Positions 3,527-30,581 of a stretch of 32,280 nt of DNA are shown piece by piece (within the stretch, counting starts at the first letter, position 1; each line of letters begins with the position of its first letter). The notes beneath the pieces are model-generated. The model worked only from the letters and a program-made list of their open reading frames with translations, did no database searches and had not been told where the DNA came from. The DNA comes from Fidelibacterota bacterium. GTDB lineage: Bacteria > Pseudomonadota > Alphaproteobacteria > Rhodospirillales > Rhodospirillaceae. The stretch is taken from assembly GCA_947481595.1 (NCBI GenBank), contig CANKHC010000012.1, positions 1 through 32,280 on the forward strand, given 5' to 3'. Made by a program: the position numbers and the translations under genes.

Positions 3527-3633
3527 TCCCTCCCTGGAATGTCAGTGCGAGGGCGGCACTTTAGCAGAGGCGGCGGGTTCAGGCGAGGCGCTTAAGCCTT
3601 TGACCGGACGAGGCGAATGGAGGTTGTTTAGCC

Positions 3634-3828
<195 letters not shown>

Positions 3829-4026
3829 TCAGCGCTCGACGGTGGGACCGCGGCGCGGCGTGTTGATGTTGGCGTCGGGCTGGCCGCGATGCAGCGAGTC
3901 GAGATCGCCGCCGGTGGCGCGGCGGGACTCATTCAGGCGGGCGAGGTCTGCACCGGTGGTCTTGTCGCGGGCAGGAATGGGAGCGTCGGAGGGCAGCGGC
4001 TGGGCCGCATCGCGAATGGCTTTCAT
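3829..4026 (-). CDS. small hypothetical protein (65 aa)
   Basis: ATG at 4026 with GGAG RBS: MKAIRDAAQPLPSDAPIPARDKTTGADLARLNESRRATGGDLDSLHRGQPDANINTPRRGPTVER. The track's longer ORF (to 4101) probably over-extends. Confidence 0.55.
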   Translation of the reverse strand: MKAIRDAAQPLPSDAPIPARDKTTGADLARLNESRRATGGDLDSLHRGQPDANINTPRRGPTVER

Positions 4027-4056
4027 GGCGGTATCTCCATCTGTCATATGCAGTAA

Positions 4057-4082
4057 AACGTTTGGTGACGCGGCATTGTTCA
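4057..4082 (-). promoter_or_regulatory. near-consensus EcfG-type promoter (TGAAC-N17-CGTT) for the small-protein operon 4026-3634
   Basis: Plus strand AACG (4057-4060), 17 nt, GTTCA (4078-4082), i.e. TGAAC-N17-CGTT on the minus strand. One mismatch to GGAAC-N16/17-CGTT. Positioned just upstream of the start at 4026. Confidence 0.45.
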
Positions 4083-4084
4083 CG

Positions 4085-4109
4085 GGAACGGTGCGCGTCA
4101 AAGTGCGTT
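4085..4109 (+). promoter_or_regulatory. EcfG-type general stress promoter upstream of iaaA
   Basis: GGAAC (4085-4089), 16 nt, CGTT (4106-4109). Exact match to the published EcfG consensus, 29 nt before the ATG at 4139. Confidence 0.65.
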
Positions 4110-4138
4110 GAAGCTGTGCAGCTAAGGATTGTAGGCAG

Positions 4139-5110
4139 ATGAGACAGTGGGCTCTGGCCCTTCACGGCGGCGCGGGGAAACTCGCGCGCGGCGACCTGAC
4201 GGCCGCGCAGGATGCGGCTTACCGCGCGAGTCTGCGTGTCTGCGCGGAGGCGGGTCGAGTGATCTTGGCCGGCGGCGGAACCGCGCTCGATGCCGCCCAA
4301 GCGGCCGTGTGCGCGCTGGAGGACGATCCTTTGTTCAATGCCGGGCGCGGCGCCGTGTTCACCGCCGAGGGGAAGAACGAACTCGATGCGTCGATCATGG
4401 ATGGTGCCAGTTTGCGCGCTGGGGCCGTGGCCGGCATCAGCCGCACGCGCTCACCCATCACACTCGCGCGCTCCGTGATGGAAAAGTCGCCGCATGTGTT
4501 GTTGATCGGCGCACAAGCCGATGCCTTTGGGCAGAGCCAGGGGCTGGAACAAGTGGCGCCCGGGCACTTTTTCACCGAACCGCGCTGGCGGTCGCTAGAG
4601 AAATTCCTCGGCAAACACGGACTGCCCCTGCCCGCGCGGCCTGCGGGTGCGGCTGAAACGGCGGCGCCCTTGGCCTATGACGAAGGGGTGCGCGGCACCG
4701 TCGGGGCGGTGGCGCGCGACCAGGCGGGCAACGTCGCGGCGGCGACCTCGACGGGCGGCATGACCGGCAAACGCTGGGGCCGAGTGGGCGATAGTCCGAT
4801 CATCGGCGCGGGCACGTACGCGGCCAACGCCTCGGCGGCGGTGTCGGCGACGGGCGACGGTGAATATTTCATCCGGCTTGGCGTGGCGCGGGAGATCTGC
4901 GCCCTGGTGGAGCACAAGGGCTTGGACCTGCAGACGGCGGTGGATGCGGTGATCCAGGGTGAACTCAAAAAGATCGGCGGCACGGGGGGCGTGATCGCCA
5001 TCAATTGTGAGGGAGATATCGCCTGCAGCTTCAATACCGATGGGATGTATCGCGCAGTGGTTGCCGACACCCTGCCTTTGCGCGTGGCGATTTATCGGGA
5101 TGACATATAG
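4139..5110 (+). CDS. iaaA: isoaspartyl peptidase / L-asparaginase (Ntn-hydrolase, threonine peptidase T2 family)
   Basis: LALHGGAGKL start; GTVGAVARDQAGNVAAATSTGGMTGKRWGRVGDSPIIGAGTYA contains the autocleavage/catalytic region of this family. Confidence 0.9.
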   Translation: MRQWALALHGGAGKLARGDLTAAQDAAYRASLRVCAEAGRVILAGGGTALDAAQAAVCALEDDPLFNAGRGAVFTAEGKNELDASIMDGASLRAGAVAGISRTRSPITLARSVMEKSPHVLLIGAQADAFGQSQGLEQVAPGHFFTEPRWRSLEKFLGKHGLPLPARPAGAAETAAPLAYDEGVRGTVGAVARDQAGNVAAATSTGGMTGKRWGRVGDSPIIGAGTYAANASAAVSATGDGEYFIRLGVAREICALVEHKGLDLQTAVDAVIQGELKKIGGTGGVIAINCEGDIACSFNTDGMYRAVVADTLPLRVAIYRDDI

Positions 5111-5115
5111 CTGCA

Positions 5116-5141
5116 GGAACCCCTAGGCGCGGAAGCCCGTT
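5116..5141 (+). promoter_or_regulatory. EcfG-type general stress promoter upstream of ku
   Basis: GGAAC (5116-5120), 17 nt, CGTT (5138-5141), exact consensus match in the short iaaA-ku intergenic region, 27 nt before the ku ATG. Confidence 0.65.
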
Positions 5142-5168
5142 GAGTCTGCATTCAATAGGAATCCTTTC

Positions 5169-6074
5169 ATGCCCCGCGCTAAACGCAAAGATACCCCCCG
5201 CCCCATCGCGCACCTTTCCGGCCTGACCTCGCGCCCCGCATGGCAGGGGCACTTGCGCCTGTCGCTGGTGAGCTGTGCGGTGGGCTTGTACCGCGCGACG
5301 ACCAGCAAGAATGACGTGTCGTTCAACCTGATCAACCCGGCCACCGGCAACCGCATCAAGATGGTGCCAACGGACCCGGAGACCGACGAGCCGGTGGACC
5401 GCTCGACGCTGGTGAAAGGCTTCGAGGTCGATGACGGCAAGTACGTGCTGTTCGACGACGAGGAGCTGAAGGCGGTGAAACTCGAAACCACGCGCACGCT
5501 CGATATCGAGCGCTTTGTGGACGCGAAGTCCATCGACCGGCTGTATTGGGATACGCCTTATATCCTGGTGCCCATGGATGAAAGCGCGGTCGAGGCCTAT
5601 AGCGTCATCCAGCAGGCCATGACGCGCGCCGGCAAGATCGCGCTGGGGCGCGTGACCATGCACCAGCGCGAGCGGCTGATGGCGATCGAGCCGCGTGACA
5701 ATGGATTGCTGGCGACCACGTTGCGTATGCACGACGAGGTCATCAACACGGCGGAAGCGCTCGGTGACATTCCCCACGCCAAGGCCGACAAGCAGATGAT
5801 CGACATCGCCGAGCGCATTATCGAACAGCAGGGAGGTGCCTTCGATACCAAGCTGTTCACCGACCGCTATGAAGACGCGCTGCATGAATTGATCGAGGAA
5901 AAGCGGCGCGGCCATAAGGTCAAGGCTGTGCGCGAAGCTCCGGCGAAGGGCAACGTGGTGGATTTGATGGACGCCTTGAAGAAGAGCTTGAACAAGAAGC
6001 CGGCGAAAACAGCGCCGGCTCCCAAAGCCGATAACGTGCGCAAGTTCGAAAAGAAAAAGAGTGCCAAGCGCTAA
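5169..6074 (+). CDS. ku: Ku protein, non-homologous end joining
   Basis: RPAWQGHLRLSLVSCAVGLYRATTSKNDVSFNLINPATGNRIK...VDRSTLVKGFEVDDGKYVLFDDEELKAVKLETTRTLDIERFVD; Lys-rich C-terminal tail. Typical bacterial Ku. Confidence 0.95.
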   Translation: MPRAKRKDTPRPIAHLSGLTSRPAWQGHLRLSLVSCAVGLYRATTSKNDVSFNLINPATGNRIKMVPTDPETDEPVDRSTLVKGFEVDDGKYVLFDDEELKAVKLETTRTLDIERFVDAKSIDRLYWDTPYILVPMDESAVEAYSVIQQAMTRAGKIALGRVTMHQRERLMAIEPRDNGLLATTLRMHDEVINTAEALGDIPHAKADKQMIDIAERIIEQQGGAFDTKLFTDRYEDALHELIEEKRRGHKVKAVREAPAKGNVVDLMDALKKSLNKKPAKTAPAPKADNVRKFEKKKSAKR

Positions 6075-6286
6075 TGCGCAAGATTATCGAATTCGACGAC
6101 GAGACGTTCAGCGCCTTGAAGCTGCTGGCGGGCGACCGCACCAGTACGCTGCAGGAGCTGGCCGACGAGGCGTTTCGCGATCTTCTGAAGAAGCACGGCA
6201 GGCCGACGAACCTGCGCGAGGCGCTGCGCAAAAGTCTGCGCACTATTCCGGCAAATGACACTCACCCGCGCAAGGCAAAGCGCTGA
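6074..6286 (+). CDS. small protein, ribbon-helix-helix-like, translationally coupled to ku
   Basis: 70 aa, MRKIIEFDDETFSALKLLAGDRTSTLQELADEAFRDLLKKHGRP. ATG overlaps the ku stop (TAATG). Confidence 0.7.
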   Translation: MRKIIEFDDETFSALKLLAGDRTSTLQELADEAFRDLLKKHGRPTNLREALRKSLRTIPANDTHPRKAKR

Positions 6287-6299
6287 TTAATTTCGAGCG

Positions 6300-6848
6300 T
6301 CACACCGTCGCGAACATGGCGTCGGCTTCCATGGCGGTCGCGTCGGCGAGGATGTTGGCGTAAACCGCGGGGCCGGCCATGGCGATCAGTTCGACGATTT
6401 CGGGGTCTTTGAGGCCGTGCTCGCGAAGCCCCGCGTAGTCTGCCTCTCCGAGACTTTGCGGATCGCGCGCGCACTTCATCGCGAACAGGATCATGGTGCG
6501 CATCTCCACATCGGGCAGAGCGTTAACGTCGCGCACGATGTGTTCGATGGTGCCGGCATCCACGCCCAGCATGCGGCAACAAGCGATGTGCGCAGCTTCG
6601 CAGTAGCGGCAGTTTCTCTCCTGCGAGATGGCGACGAAGATCAGTTCCTTTTTCCAGCGCGGGATCTCGCCAGTGACCAGGATATTGCGCACCAAGTCCC
6701 AGGTTCCGCGCGCCACGGTGGGCGCGTGGCCTTGAGTCATGATGAAATTCGGCGGCCCCGGGAATGACATCCGACGGTGAAAATCGTCGTAGACGTCCTT
6801 TGTGGCCGGGGACGCTTGATCGGGTTTCAGAAGAGGAATGTGAGACAT
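6300..6848 (-). CDS. carboxymuconolactone decarboxylase / AhpD-like alkylhydroperoxidase family protein
   Basis: Start MSHIPLLKPDQASPATKDVYDDFHRR at 6848. Redox motif NCRYCEAAH in the AhpD context (LIFVAISQERNCRYCEAAHIACCRMLG). Confidence 0.82.
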   Translation of the reverse strand: MSHIPLLKPDQASPATKDVYDDFHRRMSFPGPPNFIMTQGHAPTVARGTWDLVRNILVTGEIPRWKKELIFVAISQERNCRYCEAAHIACCRMLGVDAGTIEHIVRDVNALPDVEMRTMILFAMKCARDPQSLGEADYAGLREHGLKDPEIVELIAMAGPAVYANILADATAMEADAMFATV

Positions 6849-12847: not shown

Positions 12848-13408
12848 ATGAACCAAACGACACCGAGCCGCGCGTTCTTGGATGAGCTGACGCTTGCGCT
12901 GCCGCACCTCAAAGGTGCGGCCTATATGATGACGCGCGCCAAGGCCGATGCCGACGACCTGATCCAGACCACCGCCGTCCGGGCCTTAGCGGCCTTCTCC
13001 CAGTTCACCATGGGCACCAATATCCGCGCGTGGCTCTACCGCATCATGCGCAATGAGTTCATCGACATGGTGCGCACGCGCGGGCGCACCCCGGCCCGCC
13101 TGGACGACGTTCCGGCGGAGATGTTCAAACGCAAGGAAGTGCAGGAAGAAGCGCTGGAAATGCGCGACGTCATGCGCGCCATCAGCACGCTGACGCATAT
13201 CCACCGCTAGGCCTTGTATCTCTCGTGCGTCGAGGGATTGAGCTATGAGGAAATCGCGGCCATTCAGGCCTGTGCCGTGGGAACGGTAAAAAGCCGTATC
13301 TCGCGCGCACGCCAGGACATGAAGGCGTTGCTGGAGCACGAAGACGTATCCGAGGCGAATGAACGCCCCCAAGCGCGGCCGGAGCTCATCGCGCGCAGCG
13401 CTAGCTAG
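12848..13408 (+). pseudogene. ECF (RpoE/EcfG-like) sigma factor interrupted by one in-frame TAG at 13208-13210
   Basis: Frame 12848-13207 gives sigma region 2 (ADADDLIQTTAVRALAAFSQFTMGTNIRAWLYRIMRNEFIDMVR) up to AISTLTHIHR. TAG. The same frame continues ALYLSCVEGLSYEEIAAIQACAVGTVKSRISRARQDMKALLE (region 4) to TAG at 13406. Confidence 0.85.
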
Positions 13409-13603
13409 TTAGCGCGTCAATCCATCATCGAAATGATTGCCGCGTTCGGCGGGGTACCGCCCGTGCGGGTCGGCGTCGCGTTCCAGCGAGGGGCAGGTCT
13501 CGGGCCCCCGGCTTTCGCGGCTGGGATTGTCGCGGAAGGCGTAGGGCGATCCCTCGGGGCGCTTGAAGAGAGGTCCGCGTATTTTCAGGGTGCGCATGGC
13601 CAT
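13409..13603 (-). CDS. small hypothetical protein (64 aa)
   Basis: ATG at 13603 with [71 protein letters not shown]. Consensus EcfG-type promoter upstream. Confidence 0.65.
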
Positions 13604-13626: not shown

Positions 13627-13652
13627 AACGGCGCACGACCGTTAGGTGTTCC
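13627..13652 (-). promoter_or_regulatory. EcfG-type general stress promoter upstream of the 64-aa protein
   Basis: Plus strand AACG (13627-13630), 17 nt, GTTCC (13648-13652), i.e. exact GGAAC-N17-CGTT on the minus strand, 24 nt before the ATG. Confidence 0.65.
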
Positions 13653-14500: not shown

Positions 14501-15025
14501 ATGGCGAAGCTTGTTTTCGGAATGAACGTGTCCCTCGACGGGTACGTCGATCACCAGGAATTCGCGCCTGGACCCAAGCTCTTTCGTCACTGGATTGAGC
14601 AGGTGGGCGGCCTGACCGGCAGTGTGTACGGCCGGCGCATGTACGAGATCATGCGCTATTGGGACGATGATCATCCGGAGTGGACGGCGGACAAGCACGC
14701 CTTCGCGGCGGCGTGGCGGAAGCAGCCGAAGGGGGTCGCGTCGCGGACGTTGAAGGCGGTGGGGCCCAACGCCACGCTTGTTTCGGATGACATCGTGGCG
14801 GTGATCCGGGATTTGAAGGCGCGGCTTAATGGCGAGATTGATGTGTCCGGACCGGATCTCGCCGGAAGCCTGAGCGGCGTGATCGATGAGTACCGCCTCT
14901 ACTTCCACCCCGTCGTGCTAGGGCGCGGCACGCCCTTCTTCGCCGGCACGCGGCCAGCGCTGCGCTTTGTGGCCAGCGATCTTATTGACGAGAACGTGGT
15001 CAGGCTGACCTATGTTCCCGCTTAA
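14501..15025 (+). CDS. dihydrofolate reductase family protein (RibD C-terminal-like)
   Basis: MAKLVFGMNVSLDGYVDHQEFAPGP...YGRRMYEIMRYW...DVSGPDLAGSLSGVIDEYRLYFHPVVLGRGTPFFAG. Confidence 0.88.
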   Translation: MAKLVFGMNVSLDGYVDHQEFAPGPKLFRHWIEQVGGLTGSVYGRRMYEIMRYWDDDHPEWTADKHAFAAAWRKQPKGVASRTLKAVGPNATLVSDDIVAVIRDLKARLNGEIDVSGPDLAGSLSGVIDEYRLYFHPVVLGRGTPFFAGTRPALRFVASDLIDENVVRLTYVPA

Positions 15026-29462: not shown

Positions 29463-30581
29463 TTAGCGGCTGGCCGTCTTCTTGCCTTTGGGGCCGGTCA
29501 TGGACACGGCGAAGGCCGGAACAGCATCGACGAAGTAGGCGTTCGAGATGTCGCGGTTCTCGCCGGTCTTCGGATCCGGGTTGGCATCGGCCGAGCGGCG
29601 CAGGTTCCAATAAACGCCGACCCAGTCGGAGCCCATGTTGGCCTGGTTGCCGCTGGAGAGCGTATCTTTCCACGGCTGGTAGCCGCCGATGACGCCACGG
29701 AGCGAGCCGTCCGGCTTGAATTCGAAGCGGACCTGGGCCTTGTCCAGCTGGACCTTCGGATAGGCCATTTCCTCGCCGAAGACGGCCAGGATGTAGCCGG
29801 GCGACTTCAGGGTGACCATGCCGTTCTTGATCTGACCGGCCAGCTCGTGGTGGTTGCGCGGGTCGGTGTTGACGCGGAAGGTCATGTCGCGCAGCACGTT
29901 CGACTGTGCATCGCGCTCGACGTGCTCAACGGCGACGTCGAAGGTGACGGTGACATCGCCGTCCTTGCTGAGGTCTTCACCGGTGAGAGTGATCAGCCAA
30001 GCGGGCATGCCGCCCTTGATAACTTCCCAAGCCGACAGATAGGCGCCGGGGGTGATCTTGTCGTCGCCGCGGAACACGGTCTGGCAGCCGGTGGCGCGGA
30101 AGAATTGGTTATCGACGCCCTTGACCTTGGTGAACGGGTCTTCGAAGCCGGTGGGCTGATCGGCGCCTTTGCCGTCGAGGTCGAAGCCGACCGCCGTCGG
30201 GCCGTCGATCATGTGCAGGCCGGGATCGATCGCCGAGGCCGGGTTGACCCAGGCATTGACCTGCTTGCCGTTGACCTTGCCGCGGAAGATGACCGCGCGC
30301 GCCCACGGGGTGTTGTAGCCGCCGAACATCGTGGTGTCGTCGACGGTGGTCTTGAGGTGCGCCACTTGGTCCTTGCTGTAACCAGCGGCCAGAAGGTCGA
30401 GTTCGTATTGCTCACCGACCGGGATGTTGACGCCCTTCGAGCAGTCGCCGTCCTTGTTGTAGGAGGCCGGAGCAAACATGCTCACGACATAGCTGCGCGA
30501 CTCAGCGAAGGCCGGCGCGGATACGGCGACCAAGGCGGTGGCCGAGAAAAGACTTCCAATCAGGCGGCTGCGGATTTTCAT
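29463..30581 (-). CDS. uncharacterised secreted protein
   Basis: ATG at 30581 with GGGAG RBS; MKIRSRLIGSLFSATALVAVSAPAFAESRSYVVSMFAPASYNKDGDCSKGVNIPVGEQYELDLLAAG. Followed by a strong terminator. Confidence 0.85.
   Translation of the reverse strand: MKIRSRLIGSLFSATALVAVSAPAFAESRSYVVSMFAPASYNKDGDCSKGVNIPVGEQYELDLLAAGYSKDQVAHLKTTVDDTTMFGGYNTPWARAVIFRGKVNGKQVNAWVNPASAIDPGLHMIDGPTAVGFDLDGKGADQPTGFEDPFTKVKGVDNQFFRATGCQTVFRGDDKITPGAYLSAWEVIKGGMPAWLITLTGEDLSKDGDVTVTFDVAVEHVERDAQSNVLRDMTFRVNTDPRNHHELAGQIKNGMVTLKSPGYILAVFGEEMAYPKVQLDKAQVRFEFKPDGSLRGVIGGYQPWKDTLSSGNQANMGSDWVGVYWNLRRSADANPDPKTGENRDISNAYFVDAVPAFAVSMTGPKGKKTASR

Follow-up and report, generated by a model that had tools for sequence, protein, structure and literature searches.

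Stress-inducible non-homologous end joining (NHEJ) is reportedly a feature of Sinorhizobium meliloti, and its description is attributed to Dupuy et al. in 2017 and 2019. In this species NHEJ contributes to stationary-phase repair and desiccation resistance, as stated in a report that cites this work (PMC10932983). The gene for Ku is linked to the general stress response (GSR) sigma factor EcfG in two other organisms: in Sphingomonas melonis Fr1 ku (gene #1102) is EcfG-dependent and carries a GGAAC element 30 nt upstream (PMC6599016), and in Sphingopyxis granuli TFA ku-ligD belongs to the direct GSR regulon, with the consensus GGAAC-N16-CGTT (PMC7083833).

The window analyzed here, that is the whole stretch of 32,280 nucleotides, corresponds to contig C12 in an assembly (G000) of 2.84 Mb that is 84.8% complete. 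A motif scan finds five exact GGAAC-N16/17-CGTT matches in it, as a preliminary description of this DNA had claimed, whereas dinucleotide shuffles of the window contain 0.62 on average and reach five in 0 of 100 cases. Three of the matches are intergenic and stand shortly before an ATG as putative EcfG-type promoters: GGAAC-N16-CGTT at 4085..4109 (+), 29 nt 5' of iaaA; GGAAC-N17-CGTT at 5116..5141 (+), in the iaaA-ku gap and 27 nt 5' of ku; and GGAAC-N17-CGTT at 13627..13652 (-), 23 nt 5' of small ORF C. A near-consensus TGAAC-N17-CGTT with a single mismatch (T for the first G of GGAAC) occupies 4057..4082 (-), 30 nt 5' of small ORF A, and its -35 element is separated from that of the iaaA site by 2 bp (4083-4084), also in agreement with the earlier account. 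The distance of 24–29 nt to the start codons proposed there needs a small correction: the three exact sites are indeed intergenic and near an ATG, and the range is 23–30 nt with the near-consensus site included. The two remaining exact matches, at 14993-15018 (-) and 29518-29543 (+), overlap coding genes on the opposite strand and most plausibly arose by chance. A search of 3600-6400 for sigma-70-like promoters found none, and an Rfam search of the window gave no match.

The near-consensus site points toward two small ORFs of the minus strand, ORF A (3829..4026, 65 aa, hydrophilic) and, 3' of it, ORF B (3634..3816, 60 aa), which ends in [10 protein letters not shown]. Neither has a family match, and a literature search on the SFPASDPP motif found no report. 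The iaaA-like gene (4139..5110, +) encodes in an intact frame a type-2 asparaginase/isoaspartyl peptidase of 323 aa (PF01112, 2.3e-105) and is followed by ku (5169..6074, +; 301 aa; PF02735, 3.4e-43), whose product, a bacterial NHEJ protein, scores 270.6 bits against TIGR02772 (Ku_bact), above the equivalog cut-off of 150. A gene for a small ribbon-helix-helix protein (6074..6286, +; PF20605) overlaps the ku stop codon; orthologues of this protein adjoin ku in the genomes G001, G011, G014, and G004, and are convergent with ku in the last two. Small ORF C (13409..13603, -; 64 aa, hydrophilic, no family match) adjoins the gene of an EcfG-like sigma factor paralogue (12848..13408, +; PF04542, PF22029) that contains one in-frame TAG at 13208-13210.

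Enrichment of the motif upstream of genes had been put forward in the preliminary description as a check on the EcfG assignment, and such enrichment is found genome-wide. The 2.84-Mb genome contains 92 exact GGAAC-N16/17-CGTT matches, 49 of which (53%) fall at most 120 nt upstream of a same-strand start, the starts being those called by a codon-usage script on the DNA around all 92 matches (293 kb with the window). The corresponding figure for 120 permuted motifs is 25 of 617 (4.1%; Fisher p ~1e-31), and 3.8% of positions in general are so placed. About two of the 49 upstream sites are therefore expected by chance, which corresponds to a false-positive rate of about 4% per upstream exact site. 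Spacer length is selective as well: with spacers of 6–30 nt there are 498 matches in the genome, at about 46 per spacer for 16 and 17 and about 18 per spacer elsewhere (approximate figures, as the scan counts a single match for each start), and a reversed control pattern has no preference for 16/17 (75 matches at the two spacers, 942 over 25 spacers). This preference is taken from the genome-wide count because the sampled stretches, having been picked around 16/17 sites, are biased. The genes that follow upstream sites include those for catalase, hemerythrin, a pyridoxamine-oxidase-like protein, an HWE kinase, RsbR/STAS, PRC-barrel and DUF6496 proteins, and many small proteins, a set typical of the EcfG regulons in published cases (PMC6599016, PMC7083833).

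The site before ku is conserved among ku orthologues, a further check that had been suggested for this locus. In G001 (locus L036), a same-genus relative whose Ku is 82% identical, an exact site lies 31 nt 5' of ku, and its spacer sequence is fully diverged. Exact sites with differing spacer sequences also precede ku in G011, G014, G004, G005, G020, G015, G049, and G067, on two ku copies each in the last two genomes, and an exact site is likewise present in G070. Among 78 alphaproteobacterial ku loci (order and class) 23 carry an exact site, 15 with a spacer of 16 and 8 with a spacer of 17, and only two matches in total occur over spacers of 10–15 and 18–24; permuted motifs hit a mean of 0.16 of these loci, with a maximum of 5. 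One genome of the genus, G010 (97% complete), carries ku without a close EcfG match and without the site. The other ku-bearing genomes of the genus all encode EcfG except G005 (71% complete) and all have the exact ku site except G003, where the site has one mismatch. The ku site occurs in 14 of 37 NepR-positive and 5 of 26 NepR-negative genomes, a difference in the expected direction that is not significant (p = 0.16), the NepR model being short and missing genomes that do have EcfG.

The small ORFs are also found beside ku in relatives. Orthologues of ORF A and ORF B in G011 are 68 and 58% identical, respectively, and ORF A is readable in G001. In G011, which has no iaaA at this position, ku and small ORFs A/B diverge directly from each other and are preceded by an exact site (ku) and by TGAAC-N16-CGTT (ORF A); in G001 CGAAC-N16-CGTT stands at the position of the ORF A promoter. 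With these two variants at the matching position, the putative near-consensus promoter of the small ORFs is conserved in three species, at nearly equal spacing to the start. The iaaA gene is found in only 2 of 19 same-genus genomes, this one and G001. In both it lies between the small ORFs and ku, and in G001 it is frameshifted.

These comparisons bear on the proposal, made in the preliminary description, that protein damage repair and double-strand break repair form one stress-induced module at this locus. Type-2 asparaginase/isoaspartyl peptidases degrade isoaspartyl peptides and are not themselves protein-repair enzymes. The iaaA product is a PF01112 member which scores 304.9 bits against the IaaA equivalog model NF007589, below its cut-off of 567, and the label of a protein damage repair enzyme goes too far. 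A conserved iaaA-ku module is ruled out by the distribution of iaaA and by the arrangement in G011. The conserved unit is instead ku with the divergent small ORFs, and iaaA is best seen as a recent passenger with its own site in this genome.

Three EcfG-like sigma factors are encoded in the genome (contigs C78 and C66, and the window). The C78 protein (777-1340) is preceded by an exact site at 714-738, 38 nt 5' of its start, and followed by NepR (1575-1670; PF18557, 31.9–33.2 bits, cut-off 25.7); an exact site likewise precedes the ecfG orthologues of G001, G011, G015, and G016. Among PDB sequences the C78 protein best matches a sigma factor, chain 5uxx_A, of the Bartonella RpoE-NepR complex. 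The C66 paralogue has an exact site upstream. The window paralogue is without an exact site of its own, and its TAG is located where orthologues have Glu, those of G001 and G011 having no stop. Since the sequence 3' of the TAG is conserved (81% to G001), this codon probably represents a recent mutation or an assembly error, not an old pseudogene. Recoding of TAG was considered and is unnecessary, as TAG terminates 97 of about 300 predicted genes. A phyR gene was not found in this 84.8% complete genome. In G001 phyR is beside ecfG; in this genome the equivalent position would fall past the contig end of C78, so that the lack of the gene is probably an assembly gap. In the phyR of G001/G148 (L066, 4473-5300) an in-frame TAA separates the sigma-like domain from the receiver domain.

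Taken together, the sites very probably serve EcfG (ECF15), the sigma factor of the general stress response, as promoters of ku, the small ORFs and small ORF C, and in this genome of iaaA as well. The motif enrichment, the conservation before ku orthologues, and the presence of EcfG and NepR in the genome strongly support, at the level of sequence, the assignment of EcfG-type promoters and stress control of ku made in the preliminary description. Under stress PhyR would release EcfG by drawing away its anti-sigma factor, NepR, and RNA polymerase with EcfG would then transcribe ku from the promoter in the iaaA-ku gap, as well as the divergent pair of small ORFs and small ORF C; in this genome iaaA would be added to these. 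Ku would thereby be made in non-growing or stressed cells, where the repair of double-strand breaks from a sister copy is harder. The DNA itself shows the sites, how they are conserved and enriched by position and spacer, the EcfG and NepR genes, and the regulon content; we infer transcription itself, the inducing signal, and which EcfG paralogue acts.

Other explanations of the sites differ in how much of this picture they would change. That all five matches arose by chance in a GC-rich window is extremely improbable: two of the five are indeed on the antisense strand of coding genes, but for the intergenic sites chance is excluded by the shuffles, the permuted motifs, the spacer specificity, and the cross-species conservation, and for the ku and small-ORF sites conservation refutes it. 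A narrower version concerns iaaA, whose site could have arisen by chance or as a side effect of the divergent promoter region that overlaps it, leaving iaaA outside EcfG control and the ku and small-ORF sites real. The gene's rarity in the genus and the frameshift in G001 fit this version, as does the lack of an exact site before iaaA in G001 and before eight other iaaA orthologues. However, the site in this genome is exact and 29 nt 5' of the ATG, in a class of upstream sites of which 49 are observed and only about two (some 4%) expected by chance, which makes this version quite unlikely. An iaaA promoter is therefore probable in this genome, but the site is seen here only and is not conserved.

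It is unlikely, though less so than the foregoing, that the promoters are used by another ECF sigma factor or by the EcfG-like paralogues of C66 or the window in place of EcfG itself. Three EcfG-like sigma factors are available, the C66 paralogue has its own exact upstream site, and in S. granuli two EcfG paralogues serve one regulon (PMC7083833). Against this, the window paralogue is interrupted by an in-frame stop and lacks an exact site, and it is the canonical EcfG adjoining NepR which shows the exact upstream site both here and in four relatives.

The picture is less usual for LigD, the partner of Ku in two-component NHEJ. The LigD polymerase domain (TIGR02778) has no match in this genome (84.8% complete) or in G001 (90% complete), and ku is intact here; the lack of LigD in this genome may be an assembly gap. 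In G020 an exact site lies 20 nt 5' of the ligD ATG, and no exact site was found before ligD of G003, G010, G011, and G014. In G049 and G067 (L132, L133) ligD is flanked by two copies of ku, both preceded by an exact EcfG site, and the same contig carries nepR within ~15 kb. It is conceivable, but quite improbable, that in this lineage ku and small proteins A/B belong to a conserved survival unit under EcfG control, with the small proteins protecting or holding DNA together with Ku or beside it when cells are dried or starved, and possibly with no LigD involved. The small ORFs conserved next to ku are candidates that can be tested.

In terms of known systems, the locus agrees with the EcfG (ECF15)/PhyR/NepR response of Alphaproteobacteria in its consensus, in a putatively autoregulated ecfG beside nepR, and in typical regulon members; it differs in its additional EcfG-like paralogues, of which one contains an in-frame stop, and in that phyR was not found in the incomplete assembly. 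This system also serves to place the genome in that class. As in S. granuli TFA, ku is predicted to be under an EcfG promoter, but no ligD was found beside ku or in the genome, and ku is flanked by iaaA and the ribbon-helix-helix protein. The ku gene of S. melonis Fr1 likewise has its GGAAC element shortly upstream (30 nt); the -10 element there is degenerate (GGAAC...AATT), whereas both elements are exact here. S. meliloti has four ku and five ligD copies (PMC10932983), in contrast to the single ku of this genome. Less usual in the present case are the conserved small ORFs and the lack of a detected LigD polymerase domain in this genome and G001. The motif survey suggests that EcfG control reaches a good share of alphaproteobacterial ku genes, which supports the view that end joining in Alphaproteobacteria is mainly a stress and stationary-phase function. 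EcfG control of ku is already known from S. melonis and S. granuli; this locus adds another case, and would carry such control beyond a few alphaproteobacterial models into an uncultured lineage from freshwater.
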